Source: Clostridium sp. (GTDB lineage: Bacteria > Bacillota > Clostridia > Clostridiales > Clostridiaceae). From it: DNA of 64,000 nucleotides. Where the stretch lies: assembly GCA_031292145.1 (NCBI GenBank), contig JARLHR010000111.1, positions 82,728 to 146,727 on the forward strand. Reading direction: 5' to 3'. The position numbers were made by a program, and so were the translations under genes. Below the pieces are notes generated by a model. The model was given only the letters and a program-made list of their open reading frames with translations, had not been told where the DNA came from and ran no database searches. Every line of letters begins with the position of its first letter. Within the stretch, counting starts at the first letter, position 1. Below are positions 11,358 to 58,219 of this stretch, in pieces.

Positions 11358-11384
11358 AATATAATAAAAATCAGTTCATACAAA

Positions 11385-11460
11385 AGATTTATATATTTCC
11401 AATATTATGGTCGAGAGTTTCTACCTGCTATCTTTAAATTAGTAGACTACGAGATGGTGT
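11385..11460 (+). promoter_or_regulatory. Degenerate purine (guanine-type) riboswitch
   Basis: GTTTCTACCTGC, the loop with TTTAAAT, GTAG and GACTACG reproduce the 3' half of the purine aptamer: J2/3, P3 (CTGCTA pairs with TAGTAG, one G-U), L3 and J3/1. The base after GA in GACTA is C, which in this family specifies guanine or hypoxanthine. The 5' half (TTCCAATATTATGGTCGAGA) fits L2 and P2 poorly and I find no good P1, so the aptamer appears decayed. A terminator follows at 11498, as in an expression platform, but no intact purine gene is downstream. Confidence 0.6.
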
Positions 11461-11497
11461 TTTGGTTTAAAATATTTATTGTATATTTATCTAAAGA

Positions 11498-15689: not shown

Positions 15690-15825
15690 TCCTGTGTGTT
15701 TATAAATTCATAGAGAACGGACAACCCCAGGAGGGCAGGTTACTGCTATATTTAATTATATATAGGTTCTGACTACCAACAGAAACTGTGTTTTTATCTC
15801 TTATAGATAATTATAGCGTATACAT
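15690..15825 (-). promoter_or_regulatory. Putative yjdF riboswitch leader
   Basis: The position, immediately before a YjdF gene, and a long structured leader fit the yjdF RNA motif. On the minus strand CCCTCCTGGG (about 15724-15733 on the plus strand) is complementary over seven bases to CAGGAGG, the ribosome site at about 15686-15692, so a sequestered site is directly visible. A sigma-A-like TATAAT lies further upstream near 15811-15816. The match to the published consensus was not computed. Confidence 0.6.
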
Positions 15826-23592: not shown

Positions 23593-23751
23593 ATATAAAA
23601 ATATAAGGTATATTACGGAAAATAATAAGTTAGTATGTTTTCTGATAGCTTATATATAATGTAAGCAAATTTTCAGTGCGACAGGAAATATAAATGGAAT
23701 AATAGATTTGTTAATTTCTTTAATATGCTTAGGATTTTGAGGTGTAATGCT

Positions 23752-24534
23752 TTGATATTTATTGAAAGTAAAGAAAATAGCCTGTTTAAAAATACAAAAA
23801 AACTTAAGGAAAGAAAAAATAGAAATAAAAGTAATAAATATATAATTGAAGGGTTTAGACTAGTTCAAGAGGCATTTAAGGCGAAAGTGGATGTAGATTA
23901 TTTAATTGTAGCAGAAGATGCTGAAGAAAGAATTGATGAATATTTAGCACATTATATAAATAAAGAGATTAAAATTTATAAAATAACCAATACTTTATTT
24001 AAGGAACTTATTTCTACAGAAAATCCTCAGGGAATACTTGCAGTCATAAATATGAATACAATAACGTTAAAGTCCGATGGGGATTTTTATTTGCTTTGCG
24101 ATAAGTTGCAAGATCCAGGAAACCTTGGGACTATAATAAGAACAGCTCATGCAGCAGGAGTACAGGGGATTATATTAACAAAAGGAACTGTAGATATATA
24201 TAATGAAAAGACAATTAGATCTACAATGGGATCTATATTTTACATACCTATTCATTATGATGATGAAAATCTATCTTTGGTAAAAGAATTAAAGAGTAAA
24301 GGTTTTAATTTGGTTGTTACTTCCCTTGATACAGATAAAAACTTTTTTCAGGTGAATTTAAAAGGTAAGGTGCTTTTAACAGTTGGTAATGAAGGTAACG
24401 GAGTAAGCGATGAAGTGCGAAATATGTCGGATACAAAAGTTAAAATACCAATGCCAGGCAATGCTGAATCTTTAAATGTGGCAATAGCTGCATCTGTTAT
24501 TATGTATGAAAAAGTTAGACAAAATGACTTGTAA
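23752..24534 (+). CDS. TrmH/SpoU family RNA 2'-O-methyltransferase
   Basis: The 260-residue protein has an N-terminal substrate-binding domain (KYIIEGFRLVQEA) and a C-terminal SPOUT knot with three motifs: LQDPGNLGTIIRTAHAAG, TVGNEGNGVSDEV and IPMPGNAESLNVAIAASV. It transfers methyl from SAM to a ribose of rRNA or tRNA; the exact nucleotide is unknown. The start is TTG 23752, seven bases after GAGGTG; the ATG at 23725 precedes that site. A long-hairpin element begins about 25 bases past its stop and no other terminator is visible. Confidence 0.85.
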   Translation: MIFIESKENSLFKNTKKLKERKNRNKSNKYIIEGFRLVQEAFKAKVDVDYLIVAEDAEERIDEYLAHYINKEIKIYKITNTLFKELISTENPQGILAVINMNTITLKSDGDFYLLCDKLQDPGNLGTIIRTAHAAGVQGIILTKGTVDIYNEKTIRSTMGSIFYIPIHYDDENLSLVKELKSKGFNLVVTSLDTDKNFFQVNLKGKVLLTVGNEGNGVSDEVRNMSDTKVKIPMPGNAESLNVAIAASVIMYEKVRQNDL

Positions 24535-24559
24535 TATAGATAAACAAAGCAAGAATCAA

Positions 24560-24760
24560 ACTTATGGGATAAACCTATCGAAAGAACTGGTAGTCTGTTG
24601 CTCGATTGCTAGAGAATATGGCTGCGGATTTCTAACAGTAGAAGTTGTACCCAATTTAAATTGGAACAACTTCTACTGAAGAAATGCCAGCAGTCATATT
24701 CTCAATGCAACACTGCGCAAAAGACTACCAGTTCTTTTTGGAATGGTATATACTCATAAG
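24560..24760 (+). repeat. Long-hairpin element A
   Basis: An almost end-to-end inverted repeat: CTTATGGGATA...GAAAGAACTGGTAGTCT on the left pairs with AGACTACCAGTTCTTT...CATAAG on the right, followed inwards by GAGAATATG/CATATTCTC and the core AGAAGTTGTACCCAATT / AATTGGAACAACTTCT. It is about 80 percent identical in its left arm to element E (52917) and shares the core with C and D. It contains no open frame and starts just after the trmH-like gene. Confidence 0.8.
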
Positions 24761-24831
24761 ATAAATCAAATTCGTGAATTGATTATCTATAGTTATTACA
24801 ATACGTAAACTAGAGTTAATCACAATCAACG

Positions 24832-24918
24832 GGAATCAAATACATTTATGTTACGCGGGACTATAAAAATTTTGCATCGAAATTTTCAAATGCCTGTTAC
24901 ACACAAATGTATTTTTTT
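24832..24918 (+). repeat. Hairpin element B (short relative of D)
   Basis: AATCAAATACATTT on the left pairs with AAATGTATT on the right; inside, GGACTATAAAAATTTTGCA and TCGAAATTTTCAAATGCC match element D at 57170-57325. The whole distal hairpin found in D, with the ACCCA core, is missing, so B looks like an internal-deletion derivative. The right end reads into seven T, like a terminator. The shared upstream words ACGTAAACTAGAGTTA are also found before D. Confidence 0.7.
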
Positions 24919-25005
24919 ATAATTTAATAATTCATATATTGTGTTACTCCACATACCGTCTCTATAAGCCAATGTATTATCAAAATCCCATAACAAATAC
25001 TTCAC
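24886..25005 (-). pseudogene. Truncated HAD hydrolase cut off by element B
   Basis: On the minus strand GTG 25005 follows AGGAGATG at proper spacing, and the frame reads VKYLLWDFDNTLAYRDGMWS then NTIYELLNY, the clear N-terminus of a HAD phosphatase with motif I DFDNT. After about 29 codons the text becomes the arm of hairpin element B and stops at 24886. No remainder of the gene is found on the other side. The bases from 25006 to 25329 hold no further gene. Confidence 0.7.
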
Positions 25006-25329
25006 TACATCATCTCCTAAGTATACACATATAGTCTTTTTTTACGTAATATTCTTACAATTGTATACTAAAAGTATAATTAAAGTACGGGATAATTATA
25101 ACATTAATTGAAAGACAATATATGTATTATATAAGGATTGGTACTCTTTTTTGAATTTAATGTTTTTGTATAAGTAATTACACACATTAATTTGCAGTAT
25201 AAAATTTATAAATTGTACTGATTTTTTTATTGTATTCAAATAATCGTAAATACTTGAAAAATATAGTATAATTATTCTGTAAAAGTAAATGGATATTTAA
25301 TAACTATTTTAAAAATAAGGTTGAAATGA

Positions 25330-25893
25330 ATGGATGTGTTATATGTGATTTTTGAAGGTAAGAGGGTAAAACTGAATAATGGAAAGGAATGTGTTTTAAG
25401 GAGTCCTGTTGTGGAGGATGCAGAAAAATTGATTGAGTATTTAAAACAAATATCATCAGAAACAGATTTTTTGACACGATATCCAGAAGAAGTTTCTATA
25501 ACTTTGGAGGAGGAAGAAAAATTTATAAAAGAACTTAATAAGAGTCTGAATAATGTTATGATTTCAGCTTTTATTGATGATAGGCTTGTTGGAAGTGCAA
25601 GTATAAATCCTATTGGAGAGAAAATTAGAGTATTACATAGAGCAACTTTTGGAATAGCAATTATAAAAGAAGCATGGAATCTTGGAGTAGGAACTGCTCT
25701 GATAACAGTAATTTTAGATTGTGCTAATAAAGCTGGTTATGAACAGGTTGAGTTAGAGGTGGTAACTCAAAATCAGAGAGCTATAAAGCTTTATGAAAGA
25801 TTCGGATTTAAAACCTATGGAACGAGGGAGAATGCTTTCAAATTTAAAGATGGATCATATAGTTCGGATTACTTGATGATGAAAATCTTGTAA
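25330..25893 (+). CDS. GNAT family N-acetyltransferase
   Basis: A 187-residue acyltransferase of the GNAT fold, with the acetyl-CoA loop region TFGIAIIKEAWNLGVGTALI (residues about 98-117) and the C-terminal NQRAIKLYERFGFKTYGTRE typical of RimJ/RimL-type or small-molecule acetyltransferases. The acceptor is unknown. The ATG at 25330 has only a weak site (AAGG) upstream. A decayed methyltransferase follows. Confidence 0.8.
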   Translation: MDVLYVIFEGKRVKLNNGKECVLRSPVVEDAEKLIEYLKQISSETDFLTRYPEEVSITLEEEEKFIKELNKSLNNVMISAFIDDRLVGSASINPIGEKIRVLHRATFGIAIIKEAWNLGVGTALITVILDCANKAGYEQVELEVVTQNQRAIKLYERFGFKTYGTRENAFKFKDGSYSSDYLMMKIL

Positions 25894-25898
25894 ATATA

Positions 25899-25906
25899 AG
25901 GCACAT
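25899..25906. repeat. Single end of the GGCACAT repeat
   Basis: AGGCACAT followed by TCAAAT matches the left end of the palindromic repeat at 8534 and 11158, without a partner end nearby. A corresponding single right end (ATGTGCCT) is at 17719-17726. Confidence 0.4.
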
Positions 25907-25937
25907 TCAAATCTAAATGATTTTTGGGAGGAGATTT

Positions 25938-26054
25938 ATGATTAAATCGAAAGCTTGGGATTGGAGTAAAAATGAAAGCGACTAATGGGTAAAGCCTTGC
26001 ATAGAATCTTTCTAGTTAGTTGAAATGTGGAAATCAAAAGGGTTTAATAAATAA
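25938..26054 (+). pseudogene. Remnant of a class I SAM methyltransferase
   Basis: GGGAGGAG precedes ATG 25938 and the frame reads MIKSKAWDWSKNESD stop WVKPCIESF stop LVEMWKSKGFNK. Read through the two stops it matches the N-terminus of SAM methyltransferases of the pattern KAWxW...YW..P....YYL..RWK..GF..FLDLGCG. Both stops sit where tyrosine is expected, and the SAM-binding domain itself is gone. Confidence 0.6.
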
Positions 26055-26124
26055 CTAAATCATGATACAAGTGAATGAATATCTACTTTTATAAATATGT
26101 TGTTTTAGGAAGGAAAAAGATTTG

Positions 26125-26658
26125 ATGAAACAAATAGAAACAGAAAGACTCACAATAAGAAGATTTAAAAGTGATGATTGGAAAGATTTTTATGAATATG
26201 TCTCAAATGAAGAAGTTTTAAAGTTTGAACCATACAAACCTTTCTCAAAAGAAGAAATAAAAAAAGAAGCTATAAGAAGAACAACTGATCCAGCATTTTG
26301 GGCAGTATGCCTAAAAGAAAACAATAAGTTAATAGGAAATCTATATTTTGCAGAACGAGATTTTAATACTTGGGAAATCGGATATGTATTTAATCTAAAT
26401 TATTGGGGAAATGGTTATGCAACAGAAAGCTGCAATGCCATAATGAACTACGCATTCAAAGACCTTAAAGCTAGGCGCATCATAGCAAAATGTGATCCTA
26501 AAAACCCAAATTCTTGGAGATTATTAGAAAGACTTACTATGCGCAGAGAAGGCCATTTGAAAGATAACGTCTATTTCTTCAAGGATGAAAACAATAATCC
26601 TATTTGGAAAGATACCTATGAATATGGAATGCTAGAAAAGGAATGGGTTTACTTCTAA
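26125..26658 (+). CDS. GNAT acetyltransferase, RimJ/RimL type
   Basis: This 177-residue protein starts KQIETERLTIRRFKSDDW, the usual N-terminus of the Acetyltransf_3 subgroup, and has WEIGYVFNLNYWGNGYATE as the acetyl-CoA segment and DPKNPNSWRLLERLTMRREG near the end. It probably acetylates a protein N-terminus or small amine. AGGAAGG lies upstream; a TTG at 26122 is an equally spaced alternative start. Hairpin element C begins about 90 bases downstream. Confidence 0.85.
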   Translation: MKQIETERLTIRRFKSDDWKDFYEYVSNEEVLKFEPYKPFSKEEIKKEAIRRTTDPAFWAVCLKENNKLIGNLYFAERDFNTWEIGYVFNLNYWGNGYATESCNAIMNYAFKDLKARRIIAKCDPKNPNSWRLLERLTMRREGHLKDNVYFFKDENNNPIWKDTYEYGMLEKEWVYF

Positions 26659-26746
26659 TTTAACTATAGTTAAATAGTAATTGCATATAATTTTAGGGAA
26701 AGTATAAGTGTTCTAAAAATAACTAATGTTTAAAATTATCATAAAA

Positions 26747-26940
26747 CTAGAAATAAGTAATATGTTGTGTGCAGTGTTTCATTAGGAATTTAGATGGAGT
26801 GATTCTTGAATAGAAGTTGTCCTAAACGGCTAGTTCAAAGCTTGTATTTGAGGCTAGCCATTTGGGACAACTTCTGTTCTTAGAATCACCCATCTAAATT
26901 CCTTAGAAAACGAAACACAACATATTACTTATTTCGGTAG
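26747..26940 (+). repeat. Long-hairpin element C
   Basis: The left arm CTAGAAATAAGTAATATGTTGTG pairs with CACAACATATTACTTATTTCGGTAG, then GGAATTTAGATGG/CCATCTAAATTCC, GATTCTT/AAGAATC, and the core AGAAGTTGTCC...GGGACAACTTCT enclosing GGCTAG/CTAGCC. Its arms differ in sequence from A, B, D and E, but size, nesting and the AGAAGTTGT core are the same. No coding frame. Confidence 0.8.
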
Positions 26941-27014: not shown

Positions 27015-27263
27015 TTAAAAACTGTGAATGAGAGAGTAGATATTAGAAAAGTTTTAAGGGAGAGAAGGTCATAGACTGCAAGCCTTCTTAAATAATATAA
27101 TATTGAAGTTCGCTCAGGAGTTCTAGCTGTGAAATCTATAGTAGTAGCTAGCGGCAATAAAAGTCGTTAATTAAATTGAGTTGGGTACTTTTAATTAAAG
27201 TTCCAATTAGGGTGGTAACGCGGATTTTTCGTCCCTTTTTATAGAGGGGGACGATTTTTTTAT
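27015..27263 (+). promoter_or_regulatory. T-box leader, phenylalanine specifier
   Basis: The T-box sequence AGGGTGGTAACGCGG is at 27209-27223 and is followed by the terminator CGTCCC...GGGACG with a T run (27230-27262). Stem I begins with the GAGAGTAGA-type motif, and the specifier loop near 27109-27111 offers TTC, a phenylalanine codon, consistent with pheST downstream. Uncharged tRNA-Phe would stabilise the antiterminator. Between the T-box and pheS there is an imperfect inverted repeat (AACAATTAGCACA and TGTGCATTGTGAATTG) of unknown meaning. Confidence 0.92.
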
Positions 27264-52071: not shown

Positions 52072-52917
52072 ATGGCAGAGGTATATCAAAGGATGGCGGA
52101 AAAAATACCCAATATGAGTAAAGCACAAGAAAAAATAGCAAAATATATATTAGCGCATCCAAACAGCACGCCTTTTTTAACTGTAGAAAAATTAGCGAAG
52201 CTATCTGGAGTTAGTATTGCAACTGTTACGAGATTTGTAATCTTTCTAGGATATAAGGGATATCCAGAATTTTTAAAGGATACTCAGGAATCCATGCAAC
52301 AGCAAGTGTCTAAAACTGAACGTATAAAAAATGAATTTGATGGAAATTGTAATGAAGAAAAAGAGGTATATAGTATATTTGAAGAGGATTTAAATAATAT
52401 TAAATTGACTATGGAAGAGTTAGATTTATATGAATTAAAAAAGGCAGTTAATTTATTGATAAATGCAAAAAAAATATATATAGTTGCAAGAAGAAGTGCT
52501 TTAATACTTGGGTCATTTTTGAAGTATTATTTAGATTTAATGTTTAACAATGTTAATTTAATTGAAAACATAGAACAGATACCAAAACAAATTAATGGAT
52601 TTAATGAAGAGGAAGTAATTATCGGAATTAGTTTTGAAAAATATACTAGAAGTACTGTAGAAATTTTTACACATTTAAAGAACCAAGGGGTTACAACTAT
52701 AGCTATTACAGATAATATGTTATCGCCACTAGTTCCACATGCAGATGTTACATTAACAGCACTGAGTAAAGGTTCCACTCAGATAGAATCTTTTGCAGCA
52801 CCACTTAGTTTAATTAATGCTCTAATTAGTTCAATTGAAAAGGAAAAGAAAGACTATTTTAATAGTAATATAGAATTGTTAGAAGAAGCATGGAAAAAAT
52901 TTGACTTATTTATTTAA
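52072..52917 (+). CDS. MurR/RpiR family transcriptional regulator
   Basis: A 281-residue repressor with an N-terminal HTH (SKAQEKIAKYILAHPNST, LAKLSGVSIATVTRFV) and a C-terminal SIS sugar-phosphate domain (NAKKIYIVARRSALILGSF, TTIAITDNMLSPL). Such regulators sense phosphosugars or amino-sugar phosphates. No sugar genes adjoin it, so its target is elsewhere. AAGGAAGGAG precedes the ATG. Hairpin element E starts at its stop codon. Confidence 0.9.
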   Translation: MAEVYQRMAEKIPNMSKAQEKIAKYILAHPNSTPFLTVEKLAKLSGVSIATVTRFVIFLGYKGYPEFLKDTQESMQQQVSKTERIKNEFDGNCNEEKEVYSIFEEDLNNIKLTMEELDLYELKKAVNLLINAKKIYIVARRSALILGSFLKYYLDLMFNNVNLIENIEQIPKQINGFNEEEVIIGISFEKYTRSTVEIFTHLKNQGVTTIAITDNMLSPLVPHADVTLTALSKGSTQIESFAAPLSLINALISSIEKEKKDYFNSNIELLEEAWKKFDLFI

Positions 52918-53145
52918 ACTTGTTCTATAACTTGCCGAAAGAACTGGTAGCCTTTTGCTCGGTTGCTAGAGAATGTAATTGTGGATTTCTATCGGTAGAA
53001 GTTGCACCCATTTCAGCTTGCTCCAATTATACAATTTGACAAGCTGAAATTGAACAACTTCTACCGAAGAAATGACTACAATAACATTCTCAATGCAACA
53101 CTACGCAAAAGACTACCAGTTCTTTCTAGTATGAGATATTTTTCT
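52917..53145 (+). repeat. Long-hairpin element E
   Basis: GAAAGAACTGGTAG on the left pairs with CTACCAGTTCTTTC on the right, then GCTAGAGAATGT/CATTCTC, then TCGGTAGAAGTTG/CAACTTCTACCGA, then CAGCTTG/CAAGCTG with the ACCCA motif on the left side. It is a close relative of element A, with the inner AGCTTGCTC/GACAAGCT hairpin of element D. It separates the convergent rpiR and rqcH genes. Confidence 0.82.
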
Positions 53146-53186
53146 AAGTTTAAATATAATTAGTAGTTTGCTATATTTAGATAAAG

Positions 53187-57115: not shown

Positions 57116-57155
57116 TATGGATAACTACCACGTAATCTAGAGTTATGTGGTGGCT

Positions 57156-57351
57156 AACCGAAATCAAATACGTTTTTATTCCGCAGGACTATGAAAATTC
57201 CGCTGAAAGCACTAAATGAAAGCTTGTACCCACGTTAGCTTGCTCTGAATATTCATTCAGACAAGCTAAAGTGGAACAAACTTTCATTTAGTGCTTTTTG
57301 CAGCGAAATTTTCAAATGCCTGCTTCACAAAAATGTATTTGATTTCTGGTT
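57156..57351 (+). repeat. Long-hairpin element D
   Basis: AACCGAAATCAAATACG on the left pairs with GTATTTGATTTCTGGTT on the right; inside come GAAAATTCCGCTG / CAGCGAAATTTTC, AGCACTAAATGAAAG / CTTTCATTTAGTGCT, and the core TTGTACCCACGTTAGCTTG / CAAGCTAAAGTGGAACAA. The outer part matches element B at 24832 and the inner core matches A and E. No coding frame; the rest of 57352-57569 shows nothing supported. Confidence 0.82.
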
Positions 57352-57569: not shown

Positions 57570-58219
57570 ATGAATGTTTTAGTTCTTAACAAAATTACCG
57601 GGCATGAAAATGAGATTAATGAAATAAAAACTGCTTTAAAATATACAAAAAATATAAGATTATATAAAAGAAATTATGTATTGCTCAAACATTTTGAAGG
57701 TTTTACCAATAGAAAAATAGCTGAATTGGAAAATATAGAGGAGCATACTGTTTCAATTTATATAAAAAATTATAAAGCAAAAGGGTTAGATGGCTTAAAT
57801 ATTGCCCACGGCGGCGGGGCTAGCAAAAAATCAATGAAGAACAGGAAAAAATAATAGTAGAAACTATTACTACAAAAACACCAGAAGATGTTGGTTTTGA
57901 ATCTAAAAAGAATTGGACTATTGAATTGATAAGACAATGGGTTATTAAAGAATTTAATATATCAATGTCACACAGGGGAATAGCCTATGTATTGCACAGA
58001 TTAAATTTAAGTTATACTAGACCAACTTACGTCCTTGCAAAAGCTGATAAAGAAAAGCAAGAAAAATTTAAAAATGACTTTGAAGTTCTAAAAAAATGCC
58101 TTAATGGCTCAGTTGATATTATTTTATCAAAATTAGTTCGATTTGCTGCATTTATATATAAATTTAAAGTTAGAACAGACAAATTTTTAAAAACTAATAA
58201 TTTTCTTAGCTTTTGGTAA
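57570..58219 (+). mobile_element. IS630-type transposase remnant
   Basis: The first frame (57570-57854) is a helix-turn-helix domain (LKHFEGFTNRKIAELENIEE, HTVSIYIKNYKAKGLDGLN) ending GGGASKK, the usual IS630 linker. At the run of six A (57827-57832) the frame must shift by one base to continue INEEQEKIIVETITT ... WVIKEFNISMSHRGIAYVLHRL and YTRPTYVLAKADKEKQEKF. Instead of the DDE catalytic domain an unrelated 30-codon tail follows and stops at 58219. One frameshift plus a large deletion, so no active transposase. Confidence 0.75.

Follow-up and report, generated by a model that had tools for sequence, protein, structure and literature searches.

The long hairpin elements in the window, by which we mean the whole 64,000-nucleotide stretch of Clostridium DNA analyzed here, very probably belong to a family of MITEs of an IS630-family IS. 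They carry an unusual hairpin whose arms appear to be matched at the DNA level, and most lie just behind stop codons. This assignment is the most likely one because an IS630 transposon in a relative (locus L231, positions 859-2058) has the same ends. With it, a large family of hairpins in the Clostridium beijerinckii group gains a likely mobiliser. The family also combines strong covariation, usually taken as a sign of a functional RNA, with a lack of the G.U tolerance of RNA stems. For covariation-based RNA discovery it is a caution as well as a test case. In the open-licence PMC literature, searched by titles and the starts of abstracts, we found no description of this hairpin family.

A preliminary description of this DNA had reported two inverted-repeat elements, A and E, with shared arms and a shared core, and the sequences it quoted are present at both places. 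Element A is real, but its span had been drawn too narrowly at 24560-24760, as the complete element extends over 24535-24791. The features that concern us are listed below; R1 denotes a covariance model built from 44 copies of subtype beta.

23725-24534, plus strand: SpoU-type RNA methylase gene, neighbor of A, with its stop codon TAA at 24532-24534.
24535-24791, plus strand: element A, complete, subtype alpha, 257 bp, with ends TATAGATAAACAA and TTGATTATCTATA (R1 match at 7e-14).
24579-24740, plus strand: inner hairpin of A, with conserved loops and the core GTTGTACCCA / TTGGAACAAC (short apical stem).
24830-24923, plus strand: what is left of a beta copy that has lost its middle, a short way behind A (R1 E=7.6e-12; also found by nhmmer).
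26747-26936, minus strand: copy of subtype gamma, whose canonical orientation is on this strand (R1 match over 26747-26937, E=9e-19; nhmmer 1.6e-53).
52936-53128, plus strand: element E, subtype alpha, an inner hairpin without outer ends (R1 match at 1e-23).
57158-57349, plus strand: inner hairpin of a beta copy, among the 44 from which R1 was built.
57570-58219, plus strand: broken IS630-type transposase remnant in two frames, N-terminal part, a short way behind the beta copy.

The first base of A is the base right after the TAA of the SpoU-type gene. Read with its flanks, A runs TA, TAGATAAACAA...TTGATTATCTA, TA, and the TA at each end is likely a target duplication. E follows the gene at 52072-52917 at a distance of 19 nt from the stop codon. 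No adjoining TATAGATA-type end was found beside E at up to 2 mismatches, and none was found beside the gamma copy. Both elements fold far better than shuffled sequences: the region of A (24530-24930) reaches -135.5 kcal/mol (z -12.3; 0 of 100 shuffles as good) and that of E (52920-53150) reaches -98.9 kcal/mol (z -14.5; 0 of 200 shuffles as good). Neither A nor E contains an open reading frame of at least 80 aa. Elsewhere in the window, Rfam models match a T-box leader (27015-27239), an azaaromatic riboswitch (15701-15807, minus strand) and a purine riboswitch (11369-11469).

The family comprises three arm subtypes: alpha (A and E), beta (57158-57349) and gamma (26747-26936). Helix sequences vary, and the core GTTGYACCCA..TGGAACAAC is common to all three subtypes, as are, judged by eye, the small loops CTA/AATG, CTAA/AAG and YAC/AA. 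A DNA query with A found 64 matching places in the window's own genome (G000), and a query with the type at 57140 found at least 80 among the best 40 of 229 candidates; since a palindrome matches on both strands, the copies are fewer than the matching places. We compared 193 distinct copies out of a family that has more, 105 from genomes G000, G008 and G023 and 88 from loci of other species (C. chromiireducens, C. uliginosum, C. beijerinckii, C. sp. LS, C. weizhouense and a MAG). Copies were oriented by the core motif and 12 of the 105 were then turned by eye on the alignment, after which 86 of the 105 had both end markers.

The preliminary description had also suggested searching clostridial genomes with a covariance model and looking for covarying pairs and empty sites. 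Among 68 genomes of the genus group, 18 (own genome counted) gave R1 matches, with at least 38 places in 12 of these 18 and 37, 31, 24, 17, 2 and 1 places in the other six. Covariation was strong and E proved absent from the relative G008, so that the refuting outcome named in that description, neither covariation nor empty sites, did not occur. The DNA query of type beta matched in 3 of 40 genomes, own genome counted, and hence misses diverged copies. No match was obtained for type beta against phages and plasmids, for type alpha against plasmids, or for the core pattern against viral contigs.

Complete copies end in TATAGATAWCCAA, a pattern that occurs 77 times in G000 against once for its reversed control, and 37 times in G008 against 3. 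They mostly measure 216-341 bp (one reaches 400 bp) and have TA at both ends; where two copies adjoin end to end, there is one TA for both. The IS at L231:859-2058, from genome G040, is 1200 bp long with ends TATAGATATCCAAA and TTTGTTTATCTATA, and its right TA is common with the next copy. Its orfA (951-1493) and overlapping orfB (1456-2028) both match IS630 transposase (NF033545 at 80.0 and 107.3 bits, where the cut-off of 100 applies to the whole protein; PF13358 at 6.6e-27). Set beside the ends of five MITEs, the left end of this IS is most like that of MITE L066, in 31 of 37 bases, and its right end most like that of MITE L058, in 30 of 33. By eye, the IS is flanked by a gamma-like copy on the left and a beta-like copy on the right. 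In a further genome, G041, IS630 3' ends are followed by TTGGATATCTATA-type ends.

Comparison with relatives shows a family that is dispersed and polymorphic. The genes preceding A, E and a copy at C272:59880 are ~80-82% identical in G008, where no element follows them. The E site spans 275 nt in G000 and 77 nt in G008, a fairly clean absence. A is missing as part of a 2.4-kb difference that includes two acetyltransferase genes and the gamma copy, and the C272:59880 site measures ~1.2 kb versus ~0.14 kb, which is more than the element. A second clean case, L072 against L141 of C. chromiireducens, lies between two close genes, and this pair and E against G008 are the cleanest cases of presence and absence; the comparisons of L081 with L107 and of L121 with L108 are looser. 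None of the compared empty sites showed a base-by-base insertion with TA duplication, and the assignment of TA rests on the end-to-end copies. Four observations together support the earlier suggestion of a MITE: copies share their ends, TA stands at both ends, presence differs between relatives, and a relative has an IS630-family transposon whose ends are the same. Its qualifier, a MITE without its transposase, fits the window's own genome, in which searches with PF13358 and with orfB each gave 0 matches.

The two acetyltransferase genes lie at 24792-26746, between A and the gamma copy. G008 has neither these genes nor the two elements, as if this stretch had been gained or lost as one unit. 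Separately, ten contigs of G000 (C22, C46, C90, C153, C154, C169, C177, C250, C272 and C276) have a TATAGATAWCCAA end ~150-310 bases into the contig, which looks as though these hairpins interrupt the assembly.

The distribution of the IS itself counts against the IS630-MITE explanation. No intact IS630 of the L231 type was found in G000 or in G008, where PF13358 gave two broken pieces. A search with orfB matched in 11 of 68 genomes and found a full-length match at high identity only in G040 (100%); the others gave pieces at 80-81% in G041, at 46-60% in G053 and at 67% in G054, and elsewhere matches at 29-51% or broken ones. By R1, the hairpin is present in the orfB-positive genomes G040, G041, G053 and G054 and absent in three of the other seven, G052, G015 and G059. 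The IS630 pieces in G053 and G054 had no clear TATAGATA ends, the best being one end with 1 mismatch at L251. Taken together, the genomes with orfB, the genomes with R1 matches and the pieces without clear ends indicate that the present-day IS does not track the hairpin closely. Among the other R1-positive genomes, PF13358 matched in 8 of 16, with 6 over the cut-off.

Other candidate mobilisers were considered and rejected. The IS630 remnant in the window (57570-58219) is broken, with only 17 of 58 residues alike to orfA, and the IS630 remnant in G008 is also broken, with no end at up to 1 mismatch nearby. An IS4-family transposase in G008 belongs to an element that lies between two TATAGATA-type ends but has ends of its own, CATACGCGTAAAGCT. 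This element (L065:2948-4470) interrupts one end of a MITE copy, with a 10-bp direct repeat, TTTGGATATC; given its own ends and this repeat, it is a mere insertion.

The hairpin is also found between other ends. In C. uliginosum it stands between GGGGCTGTCTCA ends, which have 35 matches in the genome against 0 for the control. With R1 run over 65 of 80 loci, all 9 GGGGCTGTCTCA end pairs of 273-277 bp in the examined loci enclose a full-length match (E 6e-21 to 4e-28). Some copies in C. chromiireducens end in AAAGGTATTG. Of five such end pairs, the three shortest (L125, L144 and L163) enclose a full-length match, and the other two span further. No AAAGGTATTG or GGGGCTGTCTCA end pair in the examined loci had a long transposase-like frame inside. 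Since sister species hold the same hairpin between other ends, IS630 ends are not essential to it.

To describe position, we took as genes open frames of at least 90 aa, which are not annotated genes, and left out copies inside an ORF (4 of 105; 0 of 88). In canonical orientation, element and left neighbor gene share a strand in 79 of 96 copies of the first set and 71 of 86 of the second (pooled, 150 of 182; p=2e-19). Among copies with a gene on either side, 68 of 72 and 49 of 65 have the stop codon of this left gene no more than 90 bases from the inner stem. Tandem contexts number 36 versus 11 in the first set and 33 versus 7 in the second. There are 36 and 32 convergent contexts, of which 31 and 25 have the left gene as the nearer one, and 5 and 6 divergent ones. 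The same-strand bias holds for 33 of 47 copies with both ends versus 117 of 135 others (Fisher p=0.015, a modest difference that is uncorrected for relatedness). The weaker bias in copies with both ends fits a loss of wrong-way insertions over time, and the orientation bias, observed as counts, is probably due in part to selective retention. Together, one hairpin core with three end types and a same-strand left neighbor in this large majority of copies are features beyond known IS630 MITEs.

An upstream frame is present for 145 of the 193 copies and yields 6 cross-species pairs in 4 groups, with the subtype differing in 4 of the 6; as a rough estimate gives 2-3 coincident gene ends by chance, we claim no excess of shared orthologous ends. 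The same gene end bears an element in three species (L018 in G000, L063 in G008 and L135 in C. sp. LS), alpha in two and beta in one.

Within the hairpin, changes on the two arms are strongly coupled. We aligned 23 of 25 alpha copies (alignment A1) and 44 of 65 beta copies (A2), leaving out truncated, near-identical and turned ones. In beta, paired cells make up 96.1% of the total, and both sides have changed in 35 of 66 pairs; in alpha, the corresponding values are 97.2% and 31 of 66. Double-change cells number 300 (beta) and 170 (alpha) against 19 and 14 one-sided standard changes. The covariation score was reached by 0 of 500 shuffles in both alignments, and in alpha the number of further pair types was reached by 58 of 500.

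Such covariation, along with the conserved loops, the position behind stop codons and the fact that copies without one or both ends are still 90-98% paired on average, would also suit a conserved structured RNA that transposon ends have spread, whether as part of the 3' untranslated region of the upstream mRNA or as an antisense RNA of its own. We consider this quite improbable. Double changes greatly exceed one-sided ones, and when stems are drawn from Watson-Crick pairs alone, the isolated mismatches on the canonical (mRNA) strand of the 193 copies comprise 46 distinct contexts with G.T and 90 with A.C. Terminator-like stems from these loci show the reverse, 19 G.T versus 2 A.C (22 versus 3 before repeats and element stems were removed). 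Stems without a T-run gave 18 versus 20 (122 versus 148 in a recount), but both strands are read there, so that the ratio is ~1:1 by construction and is no control; T-box leaders, used as a control for G.U tolerance, gave 4 versus 1 events, which are too few, with 1 of 20 leaders untrimmed. No Rfam family reached the gathering threshold in the element regions, and a lax scan of 24500-24950 gave a best E of 0.06. Because most changes are double and G.T is not favored over A.C, the arms appear to be matched at the DNA level and not as a structured RNA of the mRNA strand. On the strand transcribed by the neighbor gene, then, it is not as RNA stems that they are maintained. A structured RNA, the other reading offered by the preliminary description, is not supported for that strand in spite of the strong covariation. 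A weak preference for the opposite strand remains. In 167 of 193 copies the RNA fold of the reverse strand is better than that of the canonical one, and this together with the ~2:1 excess of A.C over G.T on the canonical strand would fit an opposite-strand RNA, although the reverse-strand preference of 90 versus 47 is weaker than in terminator-like stems. DNA-level arm matching leaves both the better reverse-strand folding and the excess of A.C unaccounted for.

DNA hairpins that are read by binding enzymes are familiar from attC sites and REP hairpins, and the elements might likewise be single-stranded-DNA hairpin substrates, with loops read by a DNA-hairpin-binding enzyme and ends that come and go. 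This alternative, which we judge unlikely, would explain why loops are conserved though helix sequence varies, why one core occurs between three end types, why mismatches are not of the RNA type, and why there is a strand preference. Against it, IS630-type ends and TA suffice to explain mobility, and the arms are far longer than those of REP or attC. Ordinary intrinsic terminators or chance AT-rich hairpins could account for the location behind stop codons, but family-wide sequence identity, the ends, and presence and absence contradict them, and behind one copy a separate terminator-like stem with a T-run remains (by eye). We give this explanation virtually no credence.

Under the IS630-MITE explanation, an IS630-family (Tc1/mariner-type) transposase acting in trans would recognize the TATAGATAWCCAA ends, excise the element and insert it at TA. 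The observed ends, TA and presence and absence suggest that it is this transposase that moves the MITEs. What lies between the ends is one imperfect palindrome with a conserved core and a conserved set of small asymmetric loops, and it does not derive from the IS, whose interior is transposase. Its arms would stay complementary because a change in one arm is carried into the other at the DNA level, most likely through copying of one arm onto the other (template switching in the hairpin at replication) and through exchange between copies. Copies lie mainly right behind stop codons, left end facing the stop, probably in part through selective retention.

Published work (PMC8794818) proposes template switching as the source of concerted double changes in stems; the precedent there concerns RNA genes and not MITEs. 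Arm matching of this kind would account for double changes with few wobble steps. We infer arm copying from the pattern of changes and this precedent, and not from an observed event. By eye, the copy at L088:1421-1609 (C272:59880) is a hybrid in which left arms of two different beta variants are joined at the core; from its resemblance to two joined left arms, arms can recombine.

A more far-reaching and tentative idea is that the 190-nt hairpin is an independent DNA module that travels on unrelated ends (TATAGATAWCCAA of IS630, AAAGGTATTG and GGGGCTGTCTCA), with its asymmetric loops kept by something that binds the folded single strand opposite the neighbor gene and its arms kept by copying. 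If true, the hairpin module would be a parasite of parasites, switching transposon vehicles.

Several known systems resemble this family. REPINs of the REP-RAYT system are palindromic, intergenic and present in high copy number, and their REPs are short and linked to tyrosine transposases. The present elements are likewise palindromic, intergenic and of high copy number, but they are much longer and have IS630-type ends and a DDE transposase. For the Correia/NEMIS elements of Neisseria, we know of no fixed orientation behind stop codons. As described in PMC2229807, these are about 107 and 155 bp, and our elements are like them, by that description, in having TA at the ends and inverted repeats whose core is conserved. 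RNase III has been reported to bind them (PMC2649163, abstract). A close parallel is RUP of Streptococcus pneumoniae, a 107-bp repeat reported in 108 copies and proposed as a MITE of IS630-Spn1 (PMC2229807). Like RUP, the present elements are non-coding intergenic repeats, have ends like those of an IS630-family IS and are likely inserted at TA. Unlike RUP, for which the passages considered from PMC2229807 report no further signature of structure or function, they mostly span 216-341 bp and are set apart from its description by a 190-nt hairpin, conserved loops and three subtypes.
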